Shown here in pieces: positions 27,038 through 58,132 of a stretch of 64,000 nt of DNA. Made by a program: the position numbers and the translations under genes. This stretch comes from Dromaius novaehollandiae. Taxonomy: Eukaryota; Chordata; Aves; Casuariiformes; Dromaiidae. The DNA lies in NCBI RefSeq assembly GCF_036370855.1, contig NC_088113.1, forward strand, positions 16,760,501 to 16,824,500, read 5' to 3'. Numbering within the stretch: the first letter of the stretch is position 1; the number at the start of each line of letters is the position of its first letter. The notes below the pieces were generated by a model. It was not told where the DNA came from. It worked only from the letters and a program-made list of their open reading frames with translations, and did no database searches.

Positions 27038-27109
27038 TTAGAATTTTCTGTCTTCTGATAGAAATAGTGTCTGCAATCCTCTGCGAACATTAAAGAGTTC
27101 CTCCTCTTG
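27038..27109 (-). CDS. SYCP2: SYCP2 coding exon 45 (terminal)
   Basis: The acceptor TTTTTGCACAG is followed by [16 protein letters not shown] and onward to a TAA stop at 27040-27038 (codons 1437-1460). It matches the end of the family (EEELLNVRRELM in mammals). The C-terminus is one to two residues shorter than in human. Confidence 0.93.
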   Translation of the reverse strand, partial: QEEELFNVRRGLQTLFLSEDRKF

Positions 27110-39100: not shown

Positions 39101-42100
39101 AAAGGCAATTTTTACTATTTCTAGGATAACAGATTTACAATACTTATCATAACATACGCTCTTTTATTCTTAGTTCAAGAAAACATTGTAAAAGATTTAA
39201 ATGGCCAGAGCTTTAGGATAGTCTATATCATTATACATTTGAAAATTATGGAGCTATTTACATACAGAAGCCAAGGATATGACAAACTTACTCCAAGCTT
39301 TATTGTAGGCTCATCAAACCCACTGATGTTAAAGTTGTAGACATCATCCCTGTCAAATAGGCACAGAGAACAATTTTGTGAGTGAATTAATGAACATCTC
39401 TCAAAGTTGGGTAAGGATAATTGGAAATTTTGTTTGAAATTGTTTCAACTACTCACACAACATGACCTGCAGTTATATTAAGAAAAGTAGTAGTTTTCAG
39501 GTTTCTGTTCTGAACTTTTTCCTATACATAAATCAAAAATTACTCATATGTTGGATTTGGACTTATGCATTCAAACATACTGTCATCTCAGAAAGCAAGT
39601 CTTTCAGCATAAACATATGAAAATACTAGCTGATGTTCAGACACTCTCACACTTAATTAGCAATAATACAATAAGGCAAAAAGAAGACAAGAGCTGGTAG
39701 AAACTAAAATGAAATGTAAATTTTCATCCTTTAAGGATATTAAACTCATGGCATTTTTCCCCAAATGTATTAGGAATCATCGCTGTGCCACAGCTATATC
39801 CCATTTAAGGATCCTATAGTCTCACTTAATCCAGTTTTGTTTACAACATTATCTTTCTCCTAAGTATTCAGCATTGTTATATTCAAAAGGAAAGACTCCA
39901 CACTCATAAGTAAAGAGATTCAATTATATAGTATTTAACTAGGAATTAATTTGTGTTTCTCTCGCTAATAGCTGCCCATATAAATATTATTCCAGATAAA
40001 ATATTTTTAATAAATATTTGTGTTAAGTATATACATCTTATGCCATACTTAACCATAACTTCTACAGAAATATTTAACATTCAGTGATACTTATTAACTT
40101 TTGCTTTACATCCACTAGCTGCCACCATATTTTTTACTTTTTACATTCCAGCATTTGTGAAGCATTTTTGCATATTTCTAATTAAAAAAACACAACAAAA
40201 GCAATAATTTAAGTATACCTTATAGACACTGAAATGGGACTTATGTAAGTGTGGTCTAAAAGAAATAAGGATACATTTTGTTAAACAGTAATTAGAATAT
40301 ATGCATTAAAACACTGCTTATATACATAAAAGTCTTCTAAAAACAATTATCCTTGTGTTGATAGCATAGCCTAAAAATGAATCTTAAATATTAAACCCTG
40401 AACGCTTTATGCTTTGACTTTACATGAGAAAAAAGCCTTTTCACATTTCAATACTGTATAACTGATTTTTCAGAACAACTCATACAAGTCTAAATTATTT
40501 CATCTCATTTTTCCCTCCACTATACCCGAACGCTAAAGGGTAAAAAGGCACCTAAAGACAAATTTAACAGGTAGTCAGGCATTGTAGTACAAAAACAAGT
40601 GGCTTAATAGGGATTTTCAGAAGCATTCATGAGATCAAGCCCTTTCATTTTTGTTCTAGAAAAATTAATCCCAGATCACACAGTTACGCTGCATGTCCTG
40701 CCTGTCTTGAAATCCCTATCCAAAGCCCTTAAAAGGCGATGCAGTCCAACAGCCACTCTATTCCTCTGCACCCATTTACAATGAAACTGTAAAGGAGAAT
40801 GTGTAGTAACTGTATATACAGAATATCTCAGAGAATCAGTTCCTGTAAGGTAAAACTGATTTCTTTTCTTTACGAATATGTTAAAGTGTTCACCAGTCAA
40901 CTTTTCAAGGAGGAGAGAACTAAGAACTTTGGATCATCAGAAAAATGAAGACTGAATACAAGTTTGAACCTCAAACTGAAATGAGAGGATGGAGACACCC
41001 TCACTGGTGCACACATCGTGCAACATCCATCAAGTGTCCCAATTAAATTCTTCCCATGAAAAGTGCTATCAGTGAGTGGATGAGTGGAAGAACACTGAAC
41101 AGAATTTCTGACAACCCCTGCAGTGATCTCAGCTACTGGGACTACTAAACAGACTGCTAGTCTCCTACGCTTTGGTAGGACGAGGTTTACCAGAAGCGAA
41201 CAAAGAATTCTGATGAAAGCAGAATGTGAAATACCTGTAGATAGAAGAGTAAGTCATACACAAAGCCACATGCACAAACACAAGAAGAGTAAGCACAAGA
41301 GTAAACAGTTAACATCATACCTGCTATAACCTGACGAGTCTCTTGATTTGCTTTTATCGTCAATCTTTTGTTTATATCTGTCACTGATGTTACTAATTAG
41401 TAATTTTGTTGCTTCTTTCATTTCCTTAGACTTTGTTTTCTGTAACAATATTTTGTAAGACTTAACTTTGAACCCATTCAGTAGAAGGACAAAGCTGCAA
41501 CAGGACTGCAGTTTCCCAACAATCATCTAATTTCACTAAACAGTCTTACAGAAGTACTAAATCACATTCCTTTGGGAATGACTGCTCACTCTATGGGGAA
41601 TGTAAGGGAAAATAAAATAAGGAGTTAGTTTTTTGGGGGTTCTTTTGTTTTTTTTTTTTTTCTTTTTAAGAGAGGTAATTTTAAGTCACAGTGAAAAAGT
41701 AAACACTTGTACTTGACATTATTTAATTCATTCTATATTAGTGGAAACTCAGTGTCAGATAAGTTTCTAAGTAAAATATATCTTCAGAATTTTGAAATAC
41801 TGAAAATTTGGCACTTTCCTTAATTATAAGTGAAAGAAATGAAGGTAAGAAACTCACCATCTTTGACTGTTTATAATTTGCAGTCTCTTTTCTAAAGAAA
41901 ATACCAGCTTCCTCTTTCATATCCTTGTATTTTGTAAAATCAGAATTCAAAGATGTTTCAGACACTCTAGCTGAAAGAAATGTTTTAAATTATGTTTCAG
42001 CAGTAGTTGAAATATTATTCCCTTCTGTACTTAACACTTTCTGTTCAAAATGATTAAAATTGTTTGACTGCTACACAGTATTTTGTAATTTTCTGCCCTC

Positions 42101-45100
42101 ATTGTATCCATTTCATTTTTTTTCCTTTTTTCTTATTTCTTTGTTTTTCTGGAAAGGTACTTCCAAAAATTGAATAAAAAGCTTTTTGTTTCACAGCTCT
42201 TTCACTAAGAATAGAAACTAATATGTAGAGGAAAAGAAAAGGACTGGGTTAAAAAGTTATCTGAAACATTTTTAGCATTAACAAAACATGAACATAACCT
42301 GGATGGGATGTATGCCCTGATGACGGATTTAGCTTTTGCTTGTCACAGGTCGTTATATTAGTCTCAGGAACAGAGCATGCTCGTTTTTTCCATATTTTTA
42401 TTTTATCAGAAGAGCTTTCCAAGAGACCAGGCAATCTAACAAAAATAATACCATCTTATCAACAAGAAATTGCAGAAAGTAGTCTTAATTACAATAAACT
42501 TGAATCATAAAATAGGAAAAGAGTGATAGCTAGTAGATACCAATACATGTTATGTTGGTATCTAAGCCTGCTATCATTCTTCAATTAACCAAGACATTGT
42601 GAAATGGCAAACCTTAAACAAAGAAATAAGATATATTTTTAAATCAATATCTAAAAGGGAACAGTATCCAATGACCACCATTCGAGTTGACCCTAGCTGT
42701 ATGCCTGTGATGCATCTATAGGAGTTACAAATAGATGAAATTTGCACTACCTTTTTAAGGTACAGTTCACTTATACATAAACCCATGTGCCATTTGTATT
42801 TTATCTTCTGATATCGTCTGAAAGAATTACTCTGCTTGTTACTACAAAATGTTGCTTGAACTTGATTTAACTCCTACTATGATCTTGTTAGCAATCAAAG
42901 AATTATTAAATCAGTGAATCTGTTCATAAGACCACAGAAAAGCTATGTTCATGAAGTAGTCTTATCAACTATACAAATATTACTATTTTGATGCCATATA
43001 TTTCAAAATAAAAACAAACACAAACCCCCACATAAGAAAGTGACCTCACTTACATAGCCAACAGTTCTTAATACAGCTGTCAGGGAAGACAAGACAATTA
43101 AATTCTAGAATTTTCTAAAACTATCCATCAAAATTTCAACTCTAGCAATACTTAAACATACTGCTCTCAAAAATAATAAATTTCTCGTAACAGCAGTTAT
43201 TTTGGTTTCTTTTCCAATACTTACAAAGAAGATTTGTTGCATCTCCCTACTGGCTGAGAATCAGGAACAATATCTAATACTTCATCTAAATGAGATATTA
43301 ATTTGGTATCAATCATTATTACAAAAGAAACGGACAAAAGTAAAAAACATTAAATAAGGACTATCAACACTTGCAAAGTTACTTGCCTGAAGTTTGCCTT
43401 TGACTGGCCTCATGTTCTGTCTCATGTAGCATTTCTAAAACTTCTTCAGCACACATTTGCTATAAACATAGTAGGACAATACAAAGAAAACATACTGGCA
43501 GGGGACTATACACAGTATAACTTCTTAAGCTTGTATTTTCCCTAATAAAATACAAAATTATTTTTTCAGTTCACAGAAGTACTGATTTTGATACCTTTTC
43601 AGGTAGTTTTGCCTCACTTCGGGTTTTTGACTTCCTGATACTCTGTTGTGTTTCACAAAACTCATTGTCTAGCACACACCTCTGTCTACCCTAAAAAGGG
43701 CAATAAATAACAGTGACATTTACAATCCATAAAGGCAAAAGAGTAAATTTTGTACTAAATAATACTTGAAATATTCTAAACTAAACATTTTATTTATTAC
43801 AGCCTTTTTCTAAAACATGGCAATACCAAGAAAAATGTTTTGTAATCCAATAATCAGGAATTTGACCCTGATCTGACCCCAAGACAGTTGGAAATAGAAA
43901 TAAAATCAAAGTGTTAGTCTGAAATCTTTGTTGAACCAGAACAGGGGGGGGAAAAAAAAAAAAAAAAGCTGCAGTTATTCGGTGACACGTATGTAGCTTT
44001 GTTAGAGTTCAGTGAACGCACTGATCAAAAATGCACTAAAACCAATGAGTGTATAAATGCTGGAGACATTTAGAATTTCACAACTATAGCTGACTGTATT
44101 ATATTTTCTTTAAAAGTATTTCAGCGTTGCACAGTGAATTTGAGATTCCACGTACACACCAATATGAAATTGTACAGGGAGGAATAACTATGGTTGTTTT
44201 TTCCCCCCACTTTCTGCAGTAATATTATTCTGAGTAAAAGACTTAGCTACAGATGATGTGCATACTCCAGTAGCTTCTTGATACAAATTCTTTGTTTTGG
44301 TCTCATTTATTGCATTAACGTTAGCCCTTTCAGAAGAGCTCATCATTTGCAAAGGCAACTTAAATCGTCCTTTACAGGGCGTGGCTGGAGATGAAAAAAA
44401 GGAAAAAAAAAAAAAGACACACAGAGACATATTAGAATTCTACTATTTGTTCCACTACAATTATTGTGCTGCCTGTGACATCAATATGTGATGACCACAT
44501 CTATGAGAACAGCATGACCACATTATTCCATAAACTTTAAAAAAGTTGGCTAGCAGTGGTATCAACTCATTATGTATCTGTAACAATTCTATTGATTTCA
44601 ATTAAGTTATATGGAGGTTAATGAGCCAATAATAGATTGTGGATGTCCAGAGGCCAGCAATGCTTTTTGCAGCCTGTCACTGATAGAAAAGTTGGTCACT
44701 TATTTAAAGATTTGACTATATTTTTGTTGGGACAGACTGTCTGACAAGTTCCAAATAAAAGCCAGAGTAGTTCTCTGTCTTATTCCACCCTAATTTGCTC
44801 TAATTTCCATCATCTAATAGCCTTAATTTATATGTGCTATGTTAGTATATGAGACTAAGGATACTGGTGCATTTGAGATTGTGTAAGAAATTTAAGTTTG
44901 CGAGTCACACTGTTCAACCACCAATTCCATCTCCAGCCTATAATGGCTTTTTTCCTACGAATTGCTTCATTGTAGAAAGTGTTACAAATCTGTCAGAGTA
45001 GGACCATTTGTAGAAAAGCAAGGACTCCCACTTGTGGTAAAAAGGCTCTTCTCCTTATCCCTTCCTCTATGAAAACTGCTGTTAAAGTCAACATCAGTAG

Positions 45101-48100
45101 CACCGGACCCATGGCTCACACCTGCAGTGGATACTGCCTTGCCTGCCAGCCATATAAGCAACTGGCCTTTGAAGAAACACACAGTTTCTATGCAACTGGA
45201 ACAATAAGTGACTCATGTTTGTGTAGTCTTGTCAAATATATGAGAGTAAAATGCAATTGATAGATGTATACACAGGAGAAAGTAGATTTCCCCATGTATC
45301 TGTCTGCTATAAAAGCAATCACTACTGAGAATTTTTTAAACTAGGAACATTTGGCTGTCATGAGGAGCGAGATGAAAACACACTTGTTTTGGGTCTTCTA
45401 ACCAATTGCTTCTATCTGATGAACTACTCAAGCTTGCTCTAGCACTAGCAGCTGACTCTCTGATAGCCAGCAGAGCAAATATGTGGCTTTCAGCTGGCTG
45501 GAATGCATTTGCAGCTGCTATTCTGCATCATGTTATGGAAAGGTAGCAAGTAGACTAGTTGAAAAATGTCAAGACTAAAGCATCTGCTGGGGAGATTCTG
45601 AGTTCTGTTCTCCCCTTCGTTCCAGGTCTGCAATGGATTACAATTCATGCTTGTATTATGTTCATCTCCATCAGCCATTTGCATAGATGTCACCTAACAG
45701 TACATATTATCTCATGTAGAAACTAATTAACAATGCATTTTTCAAAGACTATTTATAGCATACTTTTACCCTGAAAGTACTCGTCAACTTACATGTACCA
45801 AAAAATTCCAGTGGACTCCTTGTAGAAAGTCTTGTAGTTCCAGGAATAACCACTGATGCTTCAGACACTTTCCTTTTACAAGACGTGATTATCTTGAAGC
45901 ACAAAACAAACAAACAAAAAACTTAATATACTGCCTTAAGAACGACAAACAAGATTTCAGAAAATCTACTTCCAGGAGTCTTTTGACTCTTTTTGTTATT
46001 GGGATGTCAATTGCTATTGATGCACACAATTTCACCATGACACATGAGTTATTAAATAATCAAAACTAAAGGCTTTCAACTGAGACCAGTGATTTTTCTT
46101 TTTTAAATTAGTTCAGTAAGGGACAAATCCTGTCCCTGGTTAACAAACCAAGTAACTGGGATGATTTCCAGGAGTCTTCACAAAGTTATCCCATAGGCTG
46201 TAAACCAGCAAAACGTCAGGGACAGGTTTACTAGAGACCACTACCAGCAAGGCATGCATCGCATGCCTGTTGCATGACAGAGAAGATAAAGCAATGCTAT
46301 GCACCCTCATCTTTTCCCCCATCCCTAGCATATCTGTAGGTAGTCCTGGTACAACTGTGCTACATCTATAACTTTACAGCTTTAGAGCTATGTCACAAAA
46401 GAAATAGCAGGCTTCATGAATTTTACTACTTCCACAATTTAGATCAAAGAATCACGTAAGCATAGAAGCAGTCCCATGAAACTGATGTGAATAACCAGGA
46501 TATAGAATTCATCTTGACAACCTCATCAGAGCTTCTTTCGTAAACACCAGTTTCAGTGAACACCATGCCTATAGGACTTACCTCTAATTACAACTATTAC
46601 TATACCTGATCATTAACAAGGCTATAATAGACTTATTCATATCATAAAGATACAAGCATGTCTTGAAATACTGTAAAGAGAATTTTTAGAGCATAATGGT
46701 CTATTAAATAAAATTAACAATTGCTTTTTATCATGCTTATTTTGAAACTGTAACATTAATAACAGTGAGAAACCTTTTTTTGAAAAAGGGATTTATATAG
46801 CTTTGAGTCAAGTAATAAAAATTAAAACCTGCATAATTATATTCCAATTGTAAAATAACAAAAAAGTCATTTTTATTGTTGGGGACCAAGATAGAATGAT
46901 GCTGTGCAAGACAGCAGAGAATCTTTAAAGCAGAAAGTAATGATGTGGTAACTAAGATTTGTGGCCAGAATGTGTGCACGAGAGTTGCCAGCGATCATGT
47001 GCCTTCCTGCCTATGTGCCAGCAGCTGCGGTGGGCCTGTCCTGCCCACCTGCCAGGGATCAGGAGATGTCTTCCTACCTATCACAAGATGCCAGAATGCT
47101 CAGGAGATACTTGGAGGAGTGGCTGGGCTTGATTGCTATATAACCAGCCATTGTGTTTTCAATTAAGGATCTTTTGCACTACCCTACCTCAGGTCTGTGT
47201 CGTCATATGCCACATTTTATATCATAAAATACAAGAGAGATTTAAATTTACTTGTATTTCTGAGGTAGTCCCTTCTGTTTTGATAACCCTACTCTCACCT
47301 TGGAGGAAGCATCTTTGCACATGTCTTCAGTGTGCTTTTTATTCAGAGTCCTCAGGGATCCAGGAAGTTGCTGGTTTTTGGACTCCCTGAATTTCTCTTC
47401 CACTTCACCTTTTTCCTCCAAACCTGGTGACAACTGACTTTCTGGTACCAGAACCTATGTAATATTTTGCAGAAAAAGAAAAAAGTACTAAATATTTCCT
47501 TCTCTCTCTATATATACACATACACACACATGCACACACAGACATATAGGATACATTTTAGACATACATACACATACATATATATAAAAACTTCTTTACC
47601 CTAAGTATCACTTTCTGCACTACAGATTTGGATAGGTACTTTACTGCTCATATATATCTATTTTGAAAAACATCCAACTGTTACTTTGGCTAACAAGAAC
47701 AGGCTACAAGATCACATTTGATTTACATAAAGAACTTCCTTTGTGTATATTTCTCTGACGGACTATGATCTGCATATTTTTTTCTGATTCTCTTCACAGA
47801 GATGCAAACTTGATACATGCATACTTACCAGAAGTTACTTAACAGTAATTATTAGCATCTTAAAAGATCAATCAATAGATTGATCTTAGTTATTAACCAG
47901 AATAAACTTAAAAATAATGCAAATAAAAAAACTATCCCAGCATACTGAAGTATAGTACCTGTGACCCACTTTCATCGAAAACAACATGTACAGTTGTTTT
48001 GGCAACTGATGTAGATTGCTTCTTATTAAATCCCTATAAAGTGAAAAATCATCAATGTAGAATATAAACTTTGCTCATTTTATTAAACAACAATCACAAA

Positions 48101-51100
48101 GGAAATTTTTAAGTCACAGAACGTAAATGTCTGAAATCAGGATAAAGGAGAAAAGAAATTCTGCAAGTTGTCAGCAGCTGCATTCCTCATGAGCTCCTCA
48201 GTCAGGAAGAGCTGAAGGCAGACTGGTTGCCACAAGCAGTAAGGAGTAAGCTGTGGTTGGCTAAAAATTTTTGAACTAATGTTTTTCATCTTAGAATTCC
48301 AGTCCATTGCAATTATCCCTTTAGTCTTGCATGGCAGTTCTGAAGAAGACCGACCAAAACCAGCTCAAAGTATTCCCAAAGGTTAGGGCATTGATTTGAG
48401 ATGTGGAAGATCCAGTTTCAAGTCTTTGATTTGAATGGGTCTTTCCCAATTGTTCTTATCAGAGCTTCTTCAGCTTCCCACAAATAGCATTAAGTGGGCC
48501 AAAGGAGGAGTCTGATATTATAGTGGTTAGCATGGGAGACTAAAGTTTGGCTTAACTCCCTGACCTGAATCAGGGAGGTGGAGAATGAGAAGATGTAACA
48601 GAAATTAAACCAATGCTGAAATCAATCCAAAATTCCTAAGTTAGTTCATAAGAGTAGTGAGCATGTTAGACATTCAGCCTGCAGTGAGTCAGTTCTGAAA
48701 GAGTTTGCATTTGTAAGCATCTACTTCGCATGCAAAACTTGACATTAATCTATCGTGTTGCCTTTACAGCCCGTAAAGGGAGGTTTCATTTAAAATTAAT
48801 TCCTATAGCAATTCATTTTACATCTTTTTATGCATCTGAAGATTAACATATTGAGGGTAAATGCTGTTCTGCAGTGGCCATGGTAGTCAGGAACTGTAAA
48901 TAAACACACATCAATAAAATAGTCACATTTATATGGCAAGAGACATTCATTTTCAGTGAATAAAAAGAAAAAAAGCTATTAGAAAAGGTGTTTAAATCTT
49001 ACCTTATGTTTATTTACCTTACCTTACATTTATGTACTCCATAAATCTTTCTGGTTACATCTTTGATTTCCAAGATTGAATCAAAATATAAAAAAAATTT
49101 CTCTCCTCCTTGATCTCCCACACTCATCGGGCTTTTGAGACTTATTGTTAATAATTTCTTTGAATCTTTTTCTGAACAAAAACAATATTTTAAAAGTACT
49201 TTCATTAGAATGTAATAACACTTATGTGTAATGTTTTAATGGTAATTTTGCTTTTCTAAGAATTAAGTCAGTACTCTAGGATTTTAACAATTTGAAAAAC
49301 CAAGCTATTGTATAACGTACAATAGATTACATTCATGAGTGTCTGTACCTTCAAGGCTATACTGTTCTACCTCTTCTTCTGGTATAATGACAGTTTCCCA
49401 TTGATGATCCTTATATAAAAAAATGTATTTTTCAGATAAAAATTTGTACTATATTACAATTAATTTAAGTGCAAGTGATCACAAAGCTATTCAATGAGGA
49501 CAAGTTTTCAACTTTTTAAAGCCTCTGTTAGAAGAGGTGACAACGAATATATGCATCATTTATAACAGAGAATGACATTTCAAAACAGTTCTGGTAGAAA
49601 TATTCATCTAAACAATTGAGTCTCATTCATGAGAGCTACTACTACAACTTTGTAAATACCTTCTTGCACACACGTGCAATTATATGCTAAGTTGTTTGTA
49701 AAAATAGTATTAGAAAGTCATTACTTTGAAATTGTTTGATTTAAGTATGTCTAAAAAAAGAAAAAAACCCCACACCCCAACAAACAAAACCCCATAAACC
49801 TAACAATGTAACAGCAACATCAGTATAGCTGCAAATAAAACTTCCACATTTAATGTGGGGAAGCAAATCTGATATACTTGAAAAAAAATCTACTGCATCA
49901 GAAGAATCCAGTATGATAGACAAAATTAGCTTACAGCATCAACTGCTGACACATAGAAAGATATACTTCTACTACCAATGTTAAAATCTATCCAAAATTC
50001 TTCAAGATTTTCATCCAATGGCATCAGTAGCTAAAACACAAAAAGGTAACATGTAAGAGCAAGACATAAGAACAAAAATTTATACCAGCTAACATGCAGT
50101 TACGTCTTCGTGTTACAGTCTGAGCAAACTTTAAATACATAGACATCTTTATATGCTTGAAAATAATCCTTGTCTCGTTTATTCTTTTTTTTTTTTTCTT
50201 AGCTAGAAGACAAAAGCATACTTCAGCTGCATGAATTAAAATTGGTGCATACACAATTAGGTCTGTAACTTACCTCATATTTATCAAGACTTGCTGATAA
50301 ACATGGATATGTAAAAACTCTGTAAGGAAATGATATTTTGTCAAACACTAAAATCCTGTAAATAAGTTTTGCGTACCTGAACAGAGCAACTGGATTGTGC
50401 TTTCAATACAAGACTTGTAACATTTAGAGACTAGGAGGTGAGGGCAATCAAGAACTGTCACTTGATTGCACTTCCTCCCCCCCAAAAGATGACATAAATA
50501 TATCCTTACAATTAAAGCAGAAGCACAAGTCTCAAATCTCAATACTATGTTCATAGTTCTGGTTTATCTGCTGGTATTTTAAGAATAGTGTTATAGTAGG
50601 TATCCAAACTGAATATATGTTTGATGAGTAGAGATCACACAATCCCTTTGCTGTCGTGACATATAATGACATACAATGACATAAGTAAAATGTACAGCAG
50701 ATGATCATATAGACTCAAAGAAAGCTCACAGCTTCCTCTTCCTTTTTAGGTCCCTCTTCCCTAGCAGATATTCTCATTAATACTCTCATTGATCATTAGC
50801 TCAATGTCAGTACCCTAAGTTAACGAAAAAAGGAACATATACCAACAGATTACTAGCTATTTTTAGATGAAACATATCTATTGAAATTAATTAACCTCAG
50901 AATTTTGCAGCACACCTAAGCAGAATGCAAAAAACTATCCCTATTTATAAATGTTTATTAGAGAAATTGTAGCCTAGGCTTTGTATTGTTTAAGAACTTT
51001 GTCAAATGAATGTTTTTTGTTTAATGACAAATTCTTTCATACTGTTACATTAGCTAATAATCTATAACATAACTCCCATACTTAGGGGAAACATTTATGT

Positions 51101-54100
51101 ACTTAACATTTAGATAGAGAAGACAATACCATTGGCTATGTGCCAAAAGACAGTATTACTCAATTTATTTACTATTTAATATTTTAAATAGTACCTTGAC
51201 TTTACACCACAGCAAAATTAGTCTTTTCTGTTTGTACTACTATAATTCAGAGTTTAGAGAAAACAGATTTTTTGATAAAAAGGTCATCCCTGATTAATGG
51301 CGATCGGGTACAACATGAAAACATACTGGCTTTAAAATTTCTGCTTTACCTTCTTTTGTCTCCAAGCATGCCATTCACCTGGTTCAGAAATTTTCTGCAG
51401 TCCTATTGAAACACAAAGAAGTTTCTTGAAGAAATATAACATTAAAGTTTACTTCCTTGGAAACAGATTGCATATGACTTACTGTTTCAAACTCAGAATC
51501 TTTAATTCCTTTAAATGCATTGGACACAAACTCCATGGAAAACCACTGGCATGCCAGTTCTCCTCTTTGTTTTTCTGATGTCATTCTGCATAAAGCTTCT
51601 GTAATGGCTACTTGCAGGTCATAGTCTGCAGGTTACAATACATTTTACAGAAACAGGAACTTTAGAGATGTCTACAGCATAAAACATTTTACAGAAATAG
51701 TACTTTCAGAGATGCTACTGATTTGAAAAAAGTTACATAGAAGAAAGTGGTATTAGCAGCACTGGATTTTTCATATTACATATCACATATCCAGATACGT
51801 AACCCATAATGGATAAATAAAGAATTAAAGAAATAAGGATGACTAAACAATTTATTTTTCAGAAGTAAACTTCATCCTAGCTATCAAGGAATGTTAAAGT
51901 AACACTACGTATATAAGAGATAAGAAGTTTCCAACTTTCTAATCCCTGAATCTGGAGACTGTTGGATACCACAGTGATCTCTTTTCCAGATGGCAGATTA
52001 TTTTCATGTAATATTTGCATTTTTCAAAGGACTATAGTTACAACACTCTCCAACTTTAAGTGTCTTTTCAGGCTTTTTAATGGATGAGAGAAGAAGCTCA
52101 ATACTAAATTGTTTAAGTCCTGTGCTCACCTCCGGCATCTAAAATTCTTCTCCCCATATCACACCTGCAAAATAAACAACATGTTCGATCAAAATATGAC
52201 AGCAATACAAAGTACAGAGGAAAAGTTAAAGTACAGGCTTTCAATGCATGAGATGAAACCCTGATTTCACTAAAATATTGGACTTCAAAGGGATAAGGTT
52301 TTTTTACCTGCTAAGCAGCAGCAGTATTTCTGGTTTAAGACATTAGTATTTGAAAAAATGTAACTAAGAAATACACAGATAGTTTGGGAGATGCAGTTTA
52401 AAATAACCCTGTCTCCTTCCTCTTCACAAACAGCATTGTTAATCCATGCAATATGAATTATAAAGAAGAGGGAAATCTTCATTCCTATTCCTTCCCTTTC
52501 ATTCACATTAAGTGTTAGGACCCCAGTAAGTCACCAGTTTCATGCCTATTAGAATGACCAGTGGAAAAACCCATATCTTAGAATTAAGAAAAAGCAAAAC
52601 AAACAAAAAATCTCCCTCATAAATCAAAGGAAACCTTTATGTGACATGAAGAGGAACATATATTCCAAGTTCATGCAAAGCCTTCTGGAGTCAACTGACC
52701 CAAAAGTAACTATAACAACTTATTTCACTGAGATGGCCTCCTGGTACCAAACACTGCTTGCCTCCTTTTCCCCACATTTCACACATCTGAAAGCACCTTT
52801 GGGGAAGTAAATCACCTGATATATACAAATATAAACAAATGCTATCAAAACTTTTCCAAAACTTTCTGTAAATAGCCTGTCCTTCCAGCGAGTGATTCAC
52901 TGTGCCTCACCAGGAGCTCTGAATAAGAGTTTAATGATTTTAAGACAATTTGGATCAGGTGAAGCCTAACTCAGATTGAGAAAGAGACAATTTAGGTTTT
53001 TAAAGGGAGAATAACCTCTTTATAAGAACAACTGCCAAGAGGCACTACCACCAGCTACCCAGCTGCAAATGCAAAAAATGTCTTAAACAGCAACCTATCT
53101 ACAATCATTATAAATAGCCTCAGTCAAAACTGTCTTCCCAGCAACATAAACAACATAATCATATAAAAAAATCATACTGAAGATTATTTACATGACAAGC
53201 AACATTTCCTTTGCAGAAAATAGCTTTTTCCTGGCATCTCGAGGCATGTTGTCAAGCATTAAATTAAGTTTTCTTACTACCTAAGAAAAATGAGAAAAGG
53301 GAGTAGGTTAAATATAATGTAAATTGTTACAGTTTAAGTTCTTCTCTAACTACATTTTGGGCCTATGTGGCATATTTGATAAATATTAAAAAAGTAACAT
53401 GTTTAAATAATCGCAAGACAAGAAAAGATAGTAAGAGGTAGATCTGATCTTAAATTGTAATTATCCTAATAAACTACCTCAACTAACATCAATAAATTAA
53501 TGTAAGTATAAGTTGTTAACGGGTTATGTTTCTTACTTGCAGATACAAACATGGAAACAAGTTTTCAGTGCTAAAGTGGTATCTGCAGTTGATTGCTGGA
53601 CTAAAGTGTACTTTAAATTTGCATTAAAATGCCTCTACTTTGAGCACATAGCCCTCATTGAAGGCTTCTTTTCGCAACTTTACCTTTCTTTAAAGGGGGA
53701 CAGAGACCTGAAAATGTGATGTTACTAAAGTAAATAGGAGAAATTCACAGTATGCTAGAGGTATAGGAATTTTTAAGGAATTTATACCAACAGTCTTAAA
53801 GCTATTCATAGCAATTGTAATAGCTAAATAAAAGCATTGGAAATAATATGCCCTATCTCCTCAGAATCCTACTATCACTGTTATGTAACTTATTGTCCAA
53901 AATGAAAATTTAGGTCAGTAAGCTGAAAGTAGTTCATACAAATGACAACAAAAACACTCCCAGAGAAACATTAAATGAACCCTCTAAATACTAAAGCACT
54001 AGAATATTCTCCTTTCTGTAGCAAAGGTACACTTAAAATATTAACCAGCTTTACAAAGTCTGTTAGAACACTAACCAAAAAATTACTACTTAGAAAAAGG

Positions 54101-57100
54101 AATATTTACCTCCTGCTGAACGTAAATATTAATTCTTACATCAGCAATAAGGGTACACGCTCTCAGTACAAAGTTTTCTAGTATTTGCATTTTACCTAAC
54201 GAACAGTGGGGAGAGGGGAAGGAAAAAAAAGAAAGAAAGAAAGAAAGAGTTATCAAAGTGCGTGAAGGGTAGTTCCTCAGCAGCATTGGCAAACAGATTC
54301 ATTTTCATTTAGAAATAAAATATAGTATGCTTTCCTTTCCATACACAATTACTCATATTTAAAAACAAACATTTTAAACTTCATAGCTCACATGTAAAAC
54401 AGAAGAATTACTGCAACTCATAGTAAATATAGATCTTTTTAATGTTTCTATCTCTGTGCATCATATTCGGAAAGCACAAGTCCCCTCTGCATGAGATACA
54501 CTCAAATCAATTCTATAACTCAGCTCTCTGAAATATAATTCAGACCCTGGAATTGTACCTTCCCAAGGACAAGGAAATAAAACTTTCATTGTGACTGCGA
54601 TGGCATAAAGGTCTGCAGTGACTTTCTACCACTAGTGCTACACTGAAGGATAACAGGAGTGCGATCCTACAATAACAAGGTCAAAAAAAGAAACAAGGAC
54701 TACTGGCTAGTGACTACAGTAGTTTAAAAACACTGTACTTTTTAAGAAAAACTCTGTTTAAATGCTGTCACTGAGGAGACTAGACTCTCTTTTTTATACT
54801 GATACAAGCAAGTTATTTTTAAAAGACAATCCGTCGGTACAAAAAAACTCAAACAATCAAAGGTACAGCTGACATTCAAGCTTGTTTCACGGGAATCAGA
54901 AATAACACAGTCCTTTGGCTTGTGCACAGAATAAGCCTTCTTAAGAATAAGTCCTTTTCTGTCATTGCCTGAAGCACATAGATATGGTATATCTACATTA
55001 AATCAAGAAACTTTGTACCACCCTCAATTATATACGTAGAACTGTTCTCAAAACTAGCTTGCTTTTAGATGGCTCCATGACTGTTCTTGCACTACTTGGG
55101 CGTTCCCACAACAAATCTAGTAGCTGTGAATTTTTAGAATGCATGATTCCACTGGACTTCATTTTATTTTTAAGACCAGCTTATTTGACAGTAATTGAAG
55201 TAATGTTAACAATAATAACTTTAAGGTGTTCTAAAGAGACATTTTTAATACCATATCTAGCGTTTACATTTTTAAACTCACCTTCAGGACTGGTATCATA
55301 TATAACCTACAATCAAAAAAGACATTTTGACACTGTAAATATTAAGACATAAAAATCAGGTAATGTGTATCTAAAACAGGTAATCAAAAAGCATTTAATA
55401 TTTTACAGTTGCTTCATCCCTTAGGTAGGGCCGTAAGAGCCCTCTTCTAACACCAACTCTGGTTTCCTGAAATCATATTTCAGTTAAATTGCAGGAATTG
55501 TTTCCCCAATAATAAAAACATTTTTGCAGACTTTTATTTAGGAACACGAGAAGTCTCGTGGACCTTAGAAACTTTAGACAAAAGCTTGCAGGATTAGGAT
55601 ACAGCATACCACCAACTTATGCAATAAAAATTAGACTGAGATGGATTTTTTTTGTTTTTTTTATTAAACACCTATAAGATCTGATGAGTATGAATGAGTA
55701 ATAATGAATATGAATAGTGCCAAACTATTTATCCAAAAAGACTTGTAACATATTTCAGAACTCAGTGTAACATTAACTGTACAAGGAAATTAAATAGAAA
55801 CAAGTTTGAAAGTCTTTTTGTTGCTAAACTACTAATAATTTTCACAAATACATGCTCAGTGTATTTTATTATTAACATATTTTTACCAGCAACATGTCAA
55901 AGAAATCTTCAGCTAGACTTGTAAGCACTTCATTTTTCTCGTTTCCTCTAAGGATCAGAACTGCTTTTACCTTTTCAAACCAACTGACCATGTAAAGGGA
56001 AAATAAAAGTAAATCAATCTTAATAGCATGAAAAAAGGACAATGGTTTGTATTATGTTTTGTATACCTCATATAAGCTTACTTAAGATTAGAAAAGCACG
56101 GTTATCAGATTCCTGAGTGTACTTTAGTGCCAAACTGAAATTTTGCACACTGACTAAATAAACATAGGTGATCTTAATCTAACGCGAGTCACTTCTGCAG
56201 CTGACTTCTGAACACAAACACTGAAGGTCCACTTTTGCAACTACTCTCACAGACAAAAGAGCTGAAAATGGATGCTGGCTGAATGTAATCATGAAGACAT
56301 CACATCTTTTATTTATTTTTCTTTTCTTTTCAAATAAAAGCACTTCAGAAGGCAATTCAGCAATAATCATCTCTGGATACTGTCATTAATTTTGTTCAGT
56401 GAAATCTTTGGTGAAGGCAATAAGGAAGTGATCTATATTTTTCAGTATATTTATTATACTAAGCAACAAATAATTAATACCTTTAATATAAACATTGAAA
56501 TAGCACAAAATAATTAGAATAGTGCTATAATCGGTTGAAAGAGAACATACAATGCTGCCATTGTATTAACACAAAATTTATTAAATTGCACCAGAAAAGT
56601 CCAAATCATGATCAGAAAGCAGTGTAGTATGCTCATATAAAAAGAGATAATCACTTACTCTATCTGCTATAAGCATATTTAAATTAATTACACATTGCAC
56701 AACATGTGAAACTTCTACTGTATTAGAGGAGCACCACTTTATAAGGAGTTGCTCCTCTGTCAAAGGACATTTAGATCCGATTAATGTTTTTTGAAAAACT
56801 GGAAGAAATTCTTAATTCAGAAATAATTGAAGAGCAAACTGAATACCAAGCTATTCAGCACTAAAGCATTATTTAGCTATGCTTCATTAACTTCTTTTTT
56901 TTAGGTTACATATGCTTTATGGTTATACTTATCCTTTCAACAAGGCCATATTTCATCATTGCTGGGAACCCATCTTCGCCTGCTATGCTGATCTTTTTCC
57001 CACATTTCTGAAAAGAACTTAGTAAAGTTGAAATGTTTTTGATTTCTTGTTTGTCAAGTTCCTAAAACAGAAGTGATAATACAAGCTTTAATGTATGGTT

Positions 57101-58132
57101 CTGGAAGAATCTATACTTAATTACCTAGATGCCTTTTTGTTCTCAAAGCCACCTGAATTACTCCTTGAAATAGAGGTTTTCTTCTTAAATTTTATTTTTC
57201 AATTGAACTGCTTGTATAAACCAAGCCAACTGAAATGGTATATATTTTTTGACTATTACAGGAACAGCATAAACCTCTGATGTAACGATTACATTACCCG
57301 GCACAGAAGCTTGTCTAATTTGTTGACAAACTGTTTGCTGCATTTATGAGAGAGATTTTCACAGTCTTTTGTTTGCAGAAAATGTTCTAATAATTGGAAA
57401 TCTTTTTTCCTTGTAGCTTCATCAATTAGTTTTTCCAGCTGTCAGAGTAAAAGAAAATAGAGTAACTGTATTTCTGTATGGTCAAGATTTGATATAAGTT
57501 TTTATGTAGTTATTTGCTGGACTCTAAGCAAACATATTGAATCATAAAACCACTGCATGTAAAAACTGAAGTACAGAACACTATATCCAACAGATTCATC
57601 ATAGAAACACTTGTTCACTGAGTTTTTGTTATTTGCTATCTTTCCCTAACTGGACAGTTTTTCTTTCCTCATATTACAAATAGGTGCTTGCTTCATTGTG
57701 TTAATACCCCTTCCTTACTACATTTAATATTTTGTGTTTCTAAGTTATCTATCCATGAGTTCAAAAGAATCTAATATACCTAATAACAACTCCTTCCTTT
57801 CTCATCTGTTTTGCTACTTTGTTCTTTTTAAACCAGTTATAAACCGATTTTAACATTTTTGATCCTAGGTACCATCCCAACTGATTCATGAATATCAATT
57901 GCATATCTTTTATTTTTATCAATAATAATTTTCAACTCCTCTTGCTTTTTATCCAGCTTAGCACTGATACAGTCAATGAAAAAATTCTTCTCACCACATT
58001 CTTTGCCATACTGCAATTTTTACTTCTCATTAAATACTAAAAGAGGTTCTTTAAGCTAGTAGTAATTAAAACAATCAATAATCATTTTCTTACTTTAGAA
58101 GTACATACCTTCATATCATTCCTTGCTGCCAT
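27038..58132 (-). CDS. SYCP2: SYCP2, synaptonemal complex protein 2 (complete coding region, 45 coding exons)
   Basis: SYCP2 is a meiotic chromosome-axis (lateral element) protein. It forms filaments with SYCP3 through its C-terminal coiled coil and recruits HORMAD proteins. Forty-five phase-compatible exons assemble into 4380 nt (1459 residues plus stop; the human protein has about 1530). Order: residues 1-280 form the armadillo-like N-terminal domain (for example [16 protein letters not shown] and KGIKDSEFE). Residues about 283-394 form the Spt16M-like/PH-like domain ([23 protein letters not shown]). Around 395-420 is the region matching the HORMAD closure motif. A long low-complexity Lys/Ser-rich middle follows. 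About 1310-1459 is the coiled-coil region ([23 protein letters not shown]). The start is chosen from a strong Kozak context (CCAAAATGG) directly before the exon matching LEKLIDEA. Intron 3 is AT-AC and intron 20 is GC-AG. The middle is about 100 residues shorter than in mammals around exon 23. The paralogue SYCP2L lacks this neighbourhood. Confidence 0.95.
27445..27501 (-). CDS. SYCP2: SYCP2 coding exon 44
   Basis: This 57-nt phase-0 exon encodes [19 protein letters not shown] (codons 1418-1436), part of the C-terminal coiled coil. Acceptor CATTTTATAG, donor GTAAAT. Confidence 0.93.
27959..28037 (-). CDS. SYCP2: SYCP2 coding exon 43
   Basis: This 79-nt exon encodes [20 protein letters not shown] and onward (codons 1391-1417). 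Acceptor TTCCTTAG, donor GTATGA. It aligns with LHLLKTSLAKSVF of the mammalian protein. Confidence 0.93.
28357..28415 (-). CDS. SYCP2: SYCP2 coding exon 42
   Basis: This 59-nt exon encodes [19 protein letters not shown] plus a split Arg (codons 1372-1391). It aligns with DFWEKIFQKFSAYQKSEQQ in mammals. Acceptor CATTCTAG, donor GTTAGT. Confidence 0.92.
28700..28799 (-). CDS. SYCP2: SYCP2 coding exon 41 (coiled-coil core)
   Basis: This 100-nt exon encodes [20 protein letters not shown] and onward to EKEFS (codons 1338-1371). It is the most conserved part of the SYCP3-binding coiled coil. Acceptor TTTGACAG, donor GTTTGT. Confidence 0.96.
28881..28975 (-). CDS. SYCP2: SYCP2 coding exon 40
   Basis: This 95-nt exon encodes [20 protein letters not shown] and onward (codons 1307-1338). 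It matches the mammalian FTTQSWKTAQQHLRTMN region at the start of the coiled coil. Acceptor TTCTCCTAG, donor GTCTAT. Confidence 0.93.
29366..29415 (-). CDS. SYCP2: SYCP2 coding exon 39 (predicted, divergent)
   Basis: An exon here is required by phase: exon 38 ends in phase 1 and exon 40 starts in phase 0. This 50-nt segment has a good acceptor (CTTTCTTTCTGAG), an open frame [17 protein letters not shown] and donor GTAATG. It is the only phase-compatible candidate I found between 28976 and 29654. Similarity to the mammalian YETYERLNSEFKR segment is weak. Confidence 0.55.
29655..29738 (-). CDS. SYCP2: SYCP2 coding exon 38
   Basis: This 84-nt exon encodes [20 protein letters not shown] and onward (codons 1262-1290), matching SESVSSLSTNDFSIPWETW in mammals. 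Acceptor TATTTGTAG, donor GTATAT. Confidence 0.9.
30057..30218 (-). CDS. SYCP2: SYCP2 coding exon 37
   Basis: This 162-nt exon encodes [20 protein letters not shown], an acidic/lysine stretch and [12 protein letters not shown] (codons 1208-1262). It matches the mammalian GPTQHLSRKRIYIEDN...LLPKKLCKIEDAD segment, including a bipartite basic (NLS-like) character. Acceptor TTATTAAAG, donor GTTAGT. Confidence 0.92.
30854..30944 (-). CDS. SYCP2: SYCP2 coding exon 36
   Basis: This 91-nt exon encodes [20 protein letters not shown] and onward to [10 protein letters not shown] (codons 1178-1208). It matches KTWFDMPCDATHVSG weakly but collinearly. Acceptor TTCTTTTAG, donor GTACAA. Confidence 0.88.
31687..31863 (-). 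CDS. SYCP2: SYCP2 coding exon 35
   Basis: This 177-nt exon (codons 1119-1177) encodes a Ser/Thr/Lys-rich low-complexity segment beginning [20 protein letters not shown] and ending IKSKE. Acceptor AATTTTTAG, donor GTATGT. It is assigned from open frame, phase and position. Sequence conservation in this part of SYCP2 is low. Confidence 0.85.
31864..33239 (-). other. SYCP2: SYCP2 intron 34
   Basis: This is a 1376-bp GT-AG intron. It holds a 14-A run near 32719 and no recognisable exon or repeat. Confidence 0.85.
33240..33490 (-). CDS. SYCP2: SYCP2 coding exon 34 (largest)
   Basis: This 251-nt exon (codons 1035-1118) begins [20 protein letters not shown], matching IEKITEKDFTQDYDC in mammals, and ends [13 protein letters not shown]. 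Acceptor TTTTCTAG, donor GTAAGA. Several SP sites suggest proline-directed phosphorylation, but this is inference. Confidence 0.93.
33943..34132 (-). CDS. SYCP2: SYCP2 coding exon 33
   Basis: This 190-nt exon (codons 972-1035) begins [20 protein letters not shown] and ends with [12 protein letters not shown], aligned to SGSPSSIEVTR in mammals. Acceptor TTTTAATAG, donor GTACGT. Confidence 0.93.
34937..35110 (-). CDS. SYCP2: SYCP2 coding exon 32
   Basis: This 174-nt phase-0 exon (codons 914-971) encodes [20 protein letters not shown], then [20 protein letters not shown]. It matches the basic RLPRKATKTKKNYKDLSNSE stretch of the mammalian protein. It is rich in basic residues and likely contains nuclear-localisation signals. 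Acceptor TTCCAAAG, donor GTAAAT. Confidence 0.94.
35111..37419 (-). other. SYCP2: SYCP2 intron 31
   Basis: At 2309 bp this is the longest intron within the coding region. It contains a short (AAT)n microsatellite at about 37338-37356. The segment at about 35690-36620 is less AT-rich than the rest but matched no repeat I know. Confidence 0.8.
37338..37356. repeat. (AAT)n microsatellite
   Basis: About five to six AAT units lie within SYCP2 intron 31, 65 bp from exon 31. Confidence 0.85.
37420..37487 (-). CDS. SYCP2: SYCP2 coding exon 31
   Basis: This 68-nt exon encodes [20 protein letters not shown] and onward (codons 891-913), low-complexity and lysine-rich. Acceptor TTGTAACAG, donor GTAAAT. 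Confidence 0.9.
37859..38033 (-). CDS. SYCP2: SYCP2 coding exon 30
   Basis: This 175-nt exon (codons 833-891) encodes [20 protein letters not shown], then [20 protein letters not shown]. It matches [37 protein letters not shown] in mammals, the best-conserved block of the middle region. Acceptor TTTTTATAG, donor GTAAGA. Confidence 0.96.
38139..38187 (-). CDS. SYCP2: SYCP2 coding exon 29
   Basis: This 49-nt exon encodes [16 protein letters not shown] after completing a split Gly (codons 816-832), aligned to NHDELKSSVKTKDKK. Acceptor TTTCTTAAG, donor GTAAGG. Confidence 0.88.
38732..38787 (-). CDS. SYCP2: SYCP2 coding exon 28
   Basis: The acceptor ATTTTCAG opens [18 protein letters not shown] plus two bases (codons 798-816), aligned to IQEFQATAKEACADR. 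The donor is set at GGG|GTAGGG because it is the only GT before the in-frame TAG that leaves the phase required by exon 29. Confidence 0.82.
39292..39349 (-). CDS. SYCP2: SYCP2 coding exon 27
   Basis: This 58-nt exon encodes [19 protein letters not shown] (codons 778-797), matching NDVYNFNLNGADDPIIKLG almost residue for residue. Acceptor TTTGACAG, donor GTAAGT. Confidence 0.96.
39457..39521 (-). CDS. SYCP2: SYCP2 coding exon 26
   Basis: This 65-nt exon encodes [20 protein letters not shown] and onward (codons 757-778), matching EKVQKKSYRKLKTTFVNVTSE. The GTGAGT donor at 39456 is preferred over an upstream GTCATG because only it keeps the phase and length of the alignment. Confidence 0.93.
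40219..40255 (-). CDS. SYCP2: SYCP2 coding exon 25 (microexon-like)
   Basis: This 37-nt exon encodes [12 protein letters not shown] after a split Arg (codons 744-756). It is supported by phase, a good acceptor (TTCTTTTAG) and donor (GTATAC), and position. Similarity to the mammalian NKPVVQLSK segment is weak. Confidence 0.75.
41321..41439 (-). CDS. SYCP2: SYCP2 coding exon 24
   Basis: This 119-nt exon encodes [20 protein letters not shown], then [19 protein letters not shown] (codons 705-744). It matches the mammalian KSKGKEFTNVAESLISQINKRYKTKDDIKS block. Acceptor TTGTTACAG, donor GTATGA. Confidence 0.94.
41640..41668. repeat. T-rich simple tract
   Basis: A run of T with few interruptions lies in SYCP2 intron 23. 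Confidence 0.8.
41858..41970 (-). CDS. SYCP2: SYCP2 coding exon 23
   Basis: This 113-nt exon (codons 667-704) encodes [20 protein letters not shown] and onward to YKQSKM. The mammalian protein has roughly 140-150 residues between the flanking conserved blocks, against 38 here, so this is a contracted region. Acceptor TTTCTTTCAG, donor GTGAGT. Confidence 0.88.
42299..42435 (-). CDS. SYCP2: SYCP2 coding exon 22
   Basis: This 137-nt exon (codons 621-667) encodes [20 protein letters not shown], then [20 protein letters not shown]. It matches LPGVLDNICGNKIHSKWACWTPVTNIELCNNQ in mammals. Acceptor ATTTTTGTTAG, donor GTTATG. Confidence 0.94.
43225..43285 (-). CDS. SYCP2: SYCP2 coding exon 21
   Basis: This 61-nt exon encodes [20 protein letters not shown] (codons 601-621), matching SELQDVIPDSQAAEKRD. 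Acceptor CTCATTTAG. It is preceded by the short GC-AG intron 20. Confidence 0.94.
43387..43459 (-). CDS. SYCP2: SYCP2 coding exon 20 (GC splice donor)
   Basis: This 73-nt exon encodes [20 protein letters not shown] and RQTS (codons 577-601). It ends with TCAG|GCAAGT, a textbook GC donor. Using the nearby GT instead would create AAA TGA and stop the frame. Confidence 0.9.
43595..43690 (-). CDS. SYCP2: SYCP2 coding exon 19
   Basis: This 96-nt phase-0 exon encodes [20 protein letters not shown] and onward to LPEK (codons 545-576), aligned to GRHRRDNIDKH. Acceptor CCTTTTTAG, donor GTATCA. Confidence 0.9.
43944..43967. repeat. G8-A16 homopolymer junction
   Basis: Eight G are followed directly by sixteen A on the + strand, in SYCP2 intron 18. 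Confidence 0.9.
44266..44384 (-). CDS. SYCP2: SYCP2 coding exon 18 (3' boundary uncertain)
   Basis: The acceptor TTCATCTCCAG is followed by [20 protein letters not shown] and onward (codons 505-544), matching RRRRIKPPLQMTSSAEKPS. A phase-0 donor is needed. GGA|GTATGC (exon end 44266) is taken. TCT|GTAGCT (end 44251) would add five residues and cannot be excluded. The frame stays open to a TAG near 44170. Confidence 0.82.
44385..45792 (-). other. SYCP2: SYCP2 intron 17
   Basis: This is a 1408-bp GT-AG intron. A pyrimidine run (T-rich on the minus strand) directly precedes the exon 18 acceptor. The central part, about 44900-45700, is less AT-rich than its surroundings and could be an old unidentified repeat. 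Confidence 0.8.
45793..45892 (-). CDS. SYCP2: SYCP2 coding exon 17
   Basis: This 100-nt exon encodes [20 protein letters not shown] and onward to SPLEFFGT (codons 472-505), matching TPSKRKMSEASMIVSG...RSPVLFSNTS. Donor ACAT|GTAAGT is chosen over an upstream GTACAT to keep the phase. Confidence 0.94.
46871..46876. repeat. Left target-site duplication of the solo LTR
   Basis: TTTTAT is identical to the 6 bp at 47215-47220 on the other side of the TG...CA element. Confidence 0.75.
46877..47214 (+). mobile_element. Solo LTR of an endogenous retrovirus
   Basis: This 338-bp element starts TGTTGGGG and ends GCCACA (TG...CA ends). It is flanked on both sides by the identical 6-bp duplication TTTTAT (46871-46876 and 47215-47220). 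Inside it are a TATA box (TATATAA, 47137-47143), a poly(A)-signal-like AATTAA (47161-47166) and a following R/U5-like segment rich in pyrimidines, all in + orientation. No internal viral genes are present. It lies in SYCP2 intron 16, antisense to the gene, and ends 84 bp short of exon 16. A 6-bp duplication is typical of class II (beta-like) elements; the family itself is not identified. Confidence 0.8.
47299..47454 (-). CDS. SYCP2: SYCP2 coding exon 16
   Basis: This 156-nt phase-0 exon (codons 420-471) begins [20 protein letters not shown], matching ILVPESQISPVGEELVSLKE, and ends MCKDASSK. Acceptor ATTACATAG, donor GTGAGA. Confidence 0.95.
47505..47590. repeat. Compound (TA)n(CA)n microsatellite
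   Basis: Alternating TA and CA dinucleotides with interruptions lie in SYCP2 intron 15, just upstream (in gene sense) of exon 16. Confidence 0.85.
47959..48033 (-). CDS. SYCP2: SYCP2 coding exon 15 (closure-motif region)
   Basis: This 75-nt phase-0 exon (codons 395-419) encodes [20 protein letters not shown] and ESGSQ, aligned to SIRKQGISVAKTSLHILFDASGSQ. By position this is the segment that in human SYCP2 acts as the HORMA-domain closure motif recruiting HORMAD1/2. Acceptor CTTTATAG, donor GTACTA. Confidence 0.95.
48381..48590 (+). repeat. Two-unit tRNA-like (SINE-type) ancient repeat
   Basis: Unit 1 (48381-48450) has a box-A-like GGTTAGGGCATTG and a box-B-like AGTTTCAAGTC. Unit 2 (48521-48590) has TAGTGGTTAGCATGGGAGAC and ACTCCCTGACCTGAATCAGG. 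The two units align loosely with each other and with the general tRNA-derived repeat pattern of amniotes. They lie in SYCP2 intron 14 (48034... to 49022 side), between exons 15 and 14. They are too degraded to be a functional tRNA gene. Confidence 0.4.
49023..49171 (-). CDS. SYCP2: SYCP2 coding exon 14 (end of PH-like domain)
   Basis: This 149-nt exon (codons 345-394) encodes [20 protein letters not shown], then [20 protein letters not shown]. It closely matches ESKKLLTIILKNTVKISKRE...LLYFDASLEITNVTQKIFG. The donor site is repeated (GTAAGGTAAGGTAAAT); only the first GTAAGG keeps the phase with exon 15. Confidence 0.95.
49349..49409 (-). CDS. SYCP2: SYCP2 coding exon 13
   Basis: This 61-nt exon encodes [20 protein letters not shown] (codons 325-345), matching DHQWEAVTVPEEKVQIYSIE. 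Acceptor TTATATAAG, donor GTACAG. Confidence 0.96.
49935..50030 (-). CDS. SYCP2: SYCP2 coding exon 12 (start of PH-like domain)
   Basis: This 96-nt phase-0 exon (codons 293-324) encodes [20 protein letters not shown] and [13 protein letters not shown]-type sequence, matching [27 protein letters not shown]. Acceptor GTGTTTTAG, donor GTAAGC. Confidence 0.96.
50274..50319 (-). CDS. SYCP2: SYCP2 coding exon 11
   Basis: This 46-nt exon encodes [15 protein letters not shown] after a split Arg (codons 277-292), matching VFTFPCLSAFLDKYE. Acceptor CCTTACAG, donor GTAAGT. Confidence 0.96.
50320..51349 (-). other. SYCP2: SYCP2 intron 10
   Basis: This is a 1030-bp GT-AG intron. A small threefold repeat of TGACATA-type words lies at about 50658-50682. 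Nothing else was recognised. Confidence 0.85.
51350..51402 (-). CDS. SYCP2: SYCP2 coding exon 10
   Basis: This 53-nt exon encodes [17 protein letters not shown] plus a split Arg (codons 260-277), matching [17 protein letters not shown]. The intron to exon 9 is only 80 bp. Confidence 0.97.
51483..51625 (-). CDS. SYCP2: SYCP2 coding exon 9
   Basis: This 143-nt exon (codons 212-259) encodes [20 protein letters not shown], then [20 protein letters not shown] and KDSEFET. It is the best-conserved part of the N-terminal armadillo-like domain. Acceptor AACCTGCAG, donor GTAAGT. Confidence 0.97.
52130..52164 (-). CDS. SYCP2: SYCP2 coding exon 8 (35 nt)
   Basis: This very short exon encodes [11 protein letters not shown] flanked by split codons (200-212), matching SSMGERILDAG. 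Acceptor TTTTGCAG, donor GTGAGC. Confidence 0.95.
52165..53191 (-). other. SYCP2: SYCP2 intron 7
   Basis: This is a 1027-bp GT-AG intron with no recognisable exon, repeat or RNA gene. Confidence 0.85.
53192..53280 (-). CDS. SYCP2: SYCP2 coding exon 7
   Basis: This 89-nt exon encodes [20 protein letters not shown], then FSAKEMLLV (codons 171-200), matching IIKKMNAMLDKMPQDARKILSNQEMLIL. Acceptor TTTTCTTAG, donor GTAAAT. Confidence 0.95.
54110..54195 (-). CDS. SYCP2: SYCP2 coding exon 6
   Basis: This 86-nt exon encodes [20 protein letters not shown] and INIYVQQE (codons 142-170), matching KKQVVESFVPRICSLVIDSRVNICIQQE. Its acceptor pyrimidine tract includes a (CTTT)n microsatellite. Confidence 0.95.
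54196..55281 (-). other. SYCP2: SYCP2 intron 5
   Basis: This is a 1086-bp GT-AG intron that contains the microsatellite at its 3' end. No other element was recognised. Confidence 0.85.
54214..54249. repeat. (GAAA)n microsatellite next to exon 6 acceptor
   Basis: GAAA units on + give (CTTT)n plus a T run on the SYCP2 sense strand. They end about 20 nt before the exon 6 acceptor. Confidence 0.85.
55282..55306 (-). CDS. SYCP2: SYCP2 coding exon 5 (25-nt microexon)
   Basis: This microexon encodes VIYDTSPE plus one base (codons 134-142), matching VIHDVSDE. Acceptor GATTGTAG, donor GTGAGT. It is too short for ORF-based detection but is required by both phase and alignment. Confidence 0.93.
55887..55991 (-). 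CDS. SYCP2: SYCP2 coding exon 4 (starts after an AC acceptor)
   Basis: This 105-nt phase-0 exon (codons 99-133) encodes [20 protein letters not shown] and onward to EDFFDMLL, matching MVAWFEKSKDIIQ...EDLVDLLL. The exon begins directly after TTTTCCCTTTAC, that is, an AC 3' splice site. Donor GTAAAA is canonical. Confidence 0.93.
55992..56932 (-). other. SYCP2: SYCP2 intron 3, an AT-AC intron
   Basis: This 941-bp intron reads GAAAGG|ATAAGTATAACC at its 5' end and TTTTCCCTTTAC|ATGGTCAG at its 3' end (minus strand). AT-AC removal joins GLVER to MVSWFEK, exactly collinear with mammalian GLIQK-MVAWFEK. The GT four bases into the intron combined with either nearby AG gives a stop within a few codons. 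ATAAGT lacks the U12-type ATATCCTT and there is no clear TTCCTTAAC branch site, so this resembles the rare U2-dependent AT-AC class. Confidence 0.85.
56933..57061 (-). CDS. SYCP2: SYCP2 coding exon 3 (ends at an AT donor)
   Basis: This 129-nt phase-0 exon (codons 56-98) encodes [20 protein letters not shown], then [20 protein letters not shown] and VER. It matches ELNKEDIHNVSAILVSVGRCGKNISVLGQAGLLTMIKQGLIQK. Acceptor TGTTTTAG. The 5' splice site after it is ATAAGT. Confidence 0.95.
57298..57438 (-). CDS. SYCP2: SYCP2 coding exon 2
   Basis: This 141-nt phase-0 exon (codons 9-55) encodes [20 protein letters not shown], then [20 protein letters not shown] and LDKLLCR, matching LEKCIDDALRKNDFKPL...KCSKQFFHKVDNLICR. 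Acceptor CTCTGACAG, donor GTAATG. Confidence 0.97.

Follow-up and report, generated by a model that had tools for sequence, protein, structure and literature searches.

The third intron between coding exons of SYCP2 in the emu, Dromaius novaehollandiae, is in all likelihood a genuine and conserved AT-AC intron, whose excision is most likely the work of the major (U2-type) spliceosome. The direct basis for the AT-AC intron is its sequence, the reading frame, agreement with the NCBI emu protein, the fit of the donor to U1 and the missing U12 signals; the type of spliceosome in emu and the branch point we infer. As a discovery the intron is ordinary, because it is very probably the orthologue of an AT-AC intron already reported in human SYCP2.

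The SYCP2 gene and its exon 3/4 junction

Coordinates are given in Table 1 and refer to the window, that is, the whole 64,000-nucleotide stretch of DNA analysed, unless another sequence is named. A sequence-only reading of the window had assigned the gene to SYCP2, and the assignment holds: the peptide joined across exons 3 and 4 matched the Pfam family SYCP2_ARLD, an armadillo-like domain, at 2.1e-46, it aligned with 5iwz_A (a solved SYCP2 chain, presumably of mouse) without a gap at the exon 3/4 junction, and further matches were found along the gene. The NCBI emu SYCP2 protein (P0008), a model in which homology may be part of the basis, equals the spliced translation of the window over its first 141 residues and has exactly the same exon 3/4 junction. 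The region adjoining SYCP2 upstream (58936-59871) is G+C-rich and carries long overlapping frames on both strands; it is probably a CpG-island-like promoter region of SYCP2 rather than a gene.

Read on the minus strand, the intron begins ATAAGTATA and finishes CCCTTTAC. Exon 3 runs as ...CTTGTTGAAAGG to 56933 and is followed by ATAAGTATAACC from 56932; on the acceptor side the intron reads ...TTTTCCCTTTAC to 55992, exon 4 opens with ATGGTCAGTTGG from 55991, and the joined exons encode GLVER|MVSWFEK. AT plus AC at these fixed places would be met by chance with p ~0.004 (from dinucleotide frequency), and TAAGTAT at +2 to +8 with p ~2.4e-4 (from the base frequencies of the gene region).

Table 1. 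Features of emu SYCP2 in the window, and the corresponding intron of the gene taken for emu SYCP2L
Feature	Coordinates	Strand	Remark
SYCP2 coding extent in the window	27047..58132	-	ATG at 58132; final match to a mammalian SYCP2 ends at 27047
SYCP2 coding exon 1 (MAARNDMK)	58109..58132	-	GT donor
SYCP2 coding exon 2	57298..57438	-	AG acceptor, GT donor
SYCP2 coding exon 3, last residues GLVER	56933..57061	-	spliced translation
SYCP2 AT-AC intron, third between coding exons, 941 bases	55992..56932	-	equals the NCBI emu SYCP2 junction
5' splice site ATAAGTATA	56924..56932	-	+2 to +8 wholly U1-complementary
Candidate U2-type branch region TTGATTTAC	56009..56017	-	motif match only
Pyrimidine-rich tract and 3' splice site TTTTATTTTCCCTTTAC	55992..56008	-	17/20 last bases pyrimidine
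SYCP2 coding exon 4, first residues MVSWFEK	55887..55991	-	spliced translation
SYCP2 coding exon 5 (25 bases, VIYDTSPE)	55282..55306	-	
SYCP2L intron, 1,208 bases	L009 4588..3381 (C2:101031380-101032587)	-	after GLVQK, before MVSWFER

Alternative junctions were enumerated as all in-frame joins between a last exon base from 56995 to 56861 and a first exon base from 56150 to 55931, and were scored against the 5iwz segment and an alligator protein (P0003), which its source names '2-like' yet which shares 67% identity with emu SYCP2. This gave 9,900 donor/acceptor pairs, 6,319 of them with a stop. The top score, 481, was reached gap-free and only by the AT-AC junction at 56933/55991, with termini where the sequence-only reading had put them (56932/55992), and by its register shifts TA-CA and AA-AT. 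These three registers yield the same mRNA and are indistinguishable by sequence; in emu the position of the splice thus carries a two-base ambiguity. AT-AC had also been called the sole option that both keeps the frame and matches the family gap-free. It is the gap-free best, but it is not the sole option that stays open: the 30 in-frame GT-AG pairs tested include 10 without a stop, all of which alter the length of the product by insertion or deletion. The best GT-AG pair (56942/56018) scored 434 with six added residues, and the best GC-AG pair (56916/55983) scored 447 with three.

As a control, nine other SYCP2 introns with clear anchors were treated in the same way against a mammalian protein. 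An equal-length GT-AG solution existed for all nine, 0 to 8 under the unconstrained best; in the same scheme the GT-AG solution for the AT-AC intron lay 21 under the unconstrained best and was of unequal length. The unconstrained best was a non-GT-AG dinucleotide pair in 4/9 controls, so the junction score is a supportive but imperfect guide and is not decisive. A search of the emu genome with the spliced 133-residue peptide found no processed SYCP2 copy that would confirm the junction; its seven matches fell on three exons of SYCP2, on two of SYCP2L and, weakly and with stops, on two further places.

Protein models of orthologues

Emu SYCP2 residues 1-141 were used as the query for orthologues, and 120 of the 123 matches found were listed; they belong to birds, turtles, alligator, squamates, two mammals and a caecilian. 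Among these 120 the exon 3/4 junction is gap-free in 93, carries an insertion in 21 and is incomplete in 6. Exon 4 opens with M in 84 of the 93 gap-free models and with IIN, IID, IIS or VVN in the other nine, where the I-type starts look like the product of a GT donor forced four bases into the intron. All 21 insertions have Y immediately before exon 4, which implies that the preceding bases are TAC or TAT and not AG. In a search with a 133-residue fragment (6 matches), the duck and grouse models continue as ISIT and the gecko model ends ISI, which fits read-through of a ATAAGTATAAC-like intron start. This evidence shows the intron ends indirectly because it comes from protein models and not from DNA; it suggests AT-AC introns in SYCP2 and SYCP2L of other birds, turtles and crocodilians.

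An apparent translated intron before exon 4 (NLLLFSLY and LTDSFNFY are examples) is present in public gene models, namely P0022, P0027, P0042 and 18 further models of SYCP2, and 45 of the 120 SYCP2L models listed. It probably arises because gene predictors avoid AT-AC ends, and the SYCP2 and SYCP2L models that contain it are likely annotation errors. Public models of both genes in many birds are probably wrong at the exon 3/4 junction.

These observations bear on two accounts that would do away with the AT-AC intron. Emu SYCP2 could have an ordinary GT-AG or GC-AG intron together with a small change in the protein (for instance 56942/56018, or 56910 or 56916 with 55983), as the 10 open in-frame GT-AG pairs and the GC-AG pair adding three residues would allow, and as the odd junctions of some annotated avian models, with inserted words like NLLLFSLY, might be read. 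Every such junction, however, changes the number of residues within a conserved domain where 93/120 listed orthologues show no gap, none is used by the NCBI emu protein, and U1 pairing is weak at the GT donors (-2.4 kcal/mol for 56942, -1.3 kcal/mol for 56910); we regard an ordinary intron here as highly improbable. We give even less credence to the idea that the sequence or its assembly is in error, or that this individual carries an ordinary intron in a broken allele. The junction was read in a single emu genome, which favours such an account, but the error would have to affect both ends at the same time, and similar ends are visible in SYCP2L and in protein models from other birds.

Splice signals, spliceosome type and the human intron

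The SYCP2 donor matches TAAGTAT at +2 to +8 in 7/7 positions, with G at +5, and its duplex with U1 was calculated at -9.4 kcal/mol, compared with -14.5 for the U2 consensus and +1.0 for the U12 consensus. Its agreement with the U12 donor ATATCCTTT is 4/9, and it is not close to RTATCCTTT, which upholds the earlier description of the donor as U1-compatible rather than U12-like. Duplexes with U11 (SYCP2 donor -2.1, U2 consensus -5.4, U12 consensus -4.8 kcal/mol) failed to discriminate between the types and were excluded as support.

Within the last 45 bases no TTCCTTAAC-like branch site was found about 8-20 bases from the 3' end. The best word (7/9) is TCCCTTTAC, the last nine bases of the intron, which abuts the 3' splice site and is unfit as a U12 branch site because it leaves no spacing; the second best (6/9) is at -26. 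Two yUnAy words, TTGAT (A at 56014) and TTTAC (A at 56010), begin at -26 and -22 within TTGATTTAC, ahead of the pyrimidine tract, a weak criterion for the U2 type. There is no AG in the last 27 bases of the intron. What would be looked for in a U2-type AT-AC intron was found, namely the termini at a gap-free junction, a U1-compatible donor, and a degenerate branch site with a pyrimidine tract. Splicing by the major spliceosome is likely because U1 pairs from +2 to +8 and no U12 branch site is properly spaced. In such a mechanism U1 would pair with UAAGUAU at +2 to +8, U2 would select a branch point of the yUnAy type some 19-23 bases before the intron ends, and the G usual at the first and at the last intron position would be replaced by A and C, respectively. 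The suggestion made in the sequence-only reading, that inefficient splicing could be regulatory, gained no support from these results.

We take codon 100 of human SYCP2, which begins at c.298, to be the M of MVAWF, and in the alignment this M stands opposite the residue with which emu exon 4 begins. In PMC11353295 a human variant, c.298-3dup, adjoins a splice site of an SYCP2 intron that is called U12-type. PMC8280824 (text and legend of Fig 5E) instead names human SYCP2 intron 5, together with TAF2 intron 1, among 'major (U2-type) AT-AC introns' and includes it as such in RT-PCR under depletion of CENATAC, a minor-spliceosome factor. The sequence-only reading had missed this named human intron. 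From c.298, the human protein and the gap-free alignment we infer that human intron 5, the intron at c.298 and the emu intron share one position; the species differ, but the gene and the AT-AC termini are the same, and by c.298 the codon boundary probably is too.

A rival reading is that the minor spliceosome splices this AT-AC intron. AT-AC termini are common among U12-type introns, the last nine bases of the emu intron agree with TTCCTTAAC in 7/9 positions, and PMC11353295 labels the human intron U12-type. The donor, at 4/9 to ATATCCTTT against 7/7 to U1, and the U12-like word set against the 3' end without spacing, with the next best at 6/9, speak for the other type. In PMC8280824 human intron 5 is of the major type, and depletion of CENATAC is stated to have drawn a response from 0/85 introns of the major AT-AC or related kinds. 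Introns that the same paper gives as U12-type AT-AC, such as IPO5 intron 21, share the terminal dinucleotides of the emu intron, but U12-type introns have a U12 donor and a properly spaced branch site, neither of which was found here. We consider minor-spliceosome splicing very unlikely. The two papers disagree, and the emu sequence sides with the major type; that a bird has the orthologue also points to the unusual human SYCP2 intron being old.

The paralogue SYCP2L and the age of the AT-AC state

Two weak matches on contig C2 led to a candidate emu SYCP2L (L009). The start of this gene is up to 92% identical to SYCP2L proteins from other bird species, and the gene is taken here for emu SYCP2L. 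At the place homologous to the SYCP2 AT-AC intron it has an intron that starts ATGAGTATA and ends CAATTTTTAC (ATGAGT...TTTTTAC). The AT-AC junction was the best and gap-free, with a score of 268 common to three register shifts, and the best GT-AG junction scored 228 with ten added residues; the donor agrees with U1 in 6/7 positions (duplex -6.6 kcal/mol). A search found 251 SYCP2L proteins, and in the 120 listed the junction is free of gaps in 67, carries an insertion in 48 and is incomplete in 5. The end of the intron can be read in 45 of the 120, ending in Y in 44 and in H in one, and its start can be read as MSII, MSMI or ISII in five. Emu SYCP2L most likely has an AT-AC intron at the same place as SYCP2, with less certainty than for SYCP2 itself because SYCP2L also has an open GT-AG alternative that carries an insertion. 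We found no report of an AT-AC intron in SYCP2L in a literature that was mostly open-access and lay outside supplementary lists.

If the emu SYCP2L intron is correctly read, the AT-AC state probably predates the duplication. We think it probable that this state has a single origin, earlier than the split between SYCP2 and SYCP2L, and was retained in both genes afterwards. The fertility gene pair could then be used to test what makes such introns persist, and AT-AC rules would have to be applied in judging splice variants at these sites (c.298-3dup is one). The U2-type AT-AC introns that sodium-channel genes contain, intron 21 of SCN4A among them, resemble the SYCP2 intron in their termini and, according to PMC2831892, all have G at +5; their gene family is unrelated to SYCP2 and a separate origin is likely. 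The same paper proposes that these introns persist, as in a trap, because both ends must change at once. An AT-AC state older than the duplication would be the pattern that this model predicts, and SYCP2/SYCP2L would, if the reading is true, join the sodium channels as a second gene family in agreement with the 'trapped' model.

The intron of SYCP2L just upstream of the AT-AC one (L009 4808..4709, minus strand; AAAG|GCGAGT ... TTTTTCCAG|GAG) looks like a GC-AG intron.
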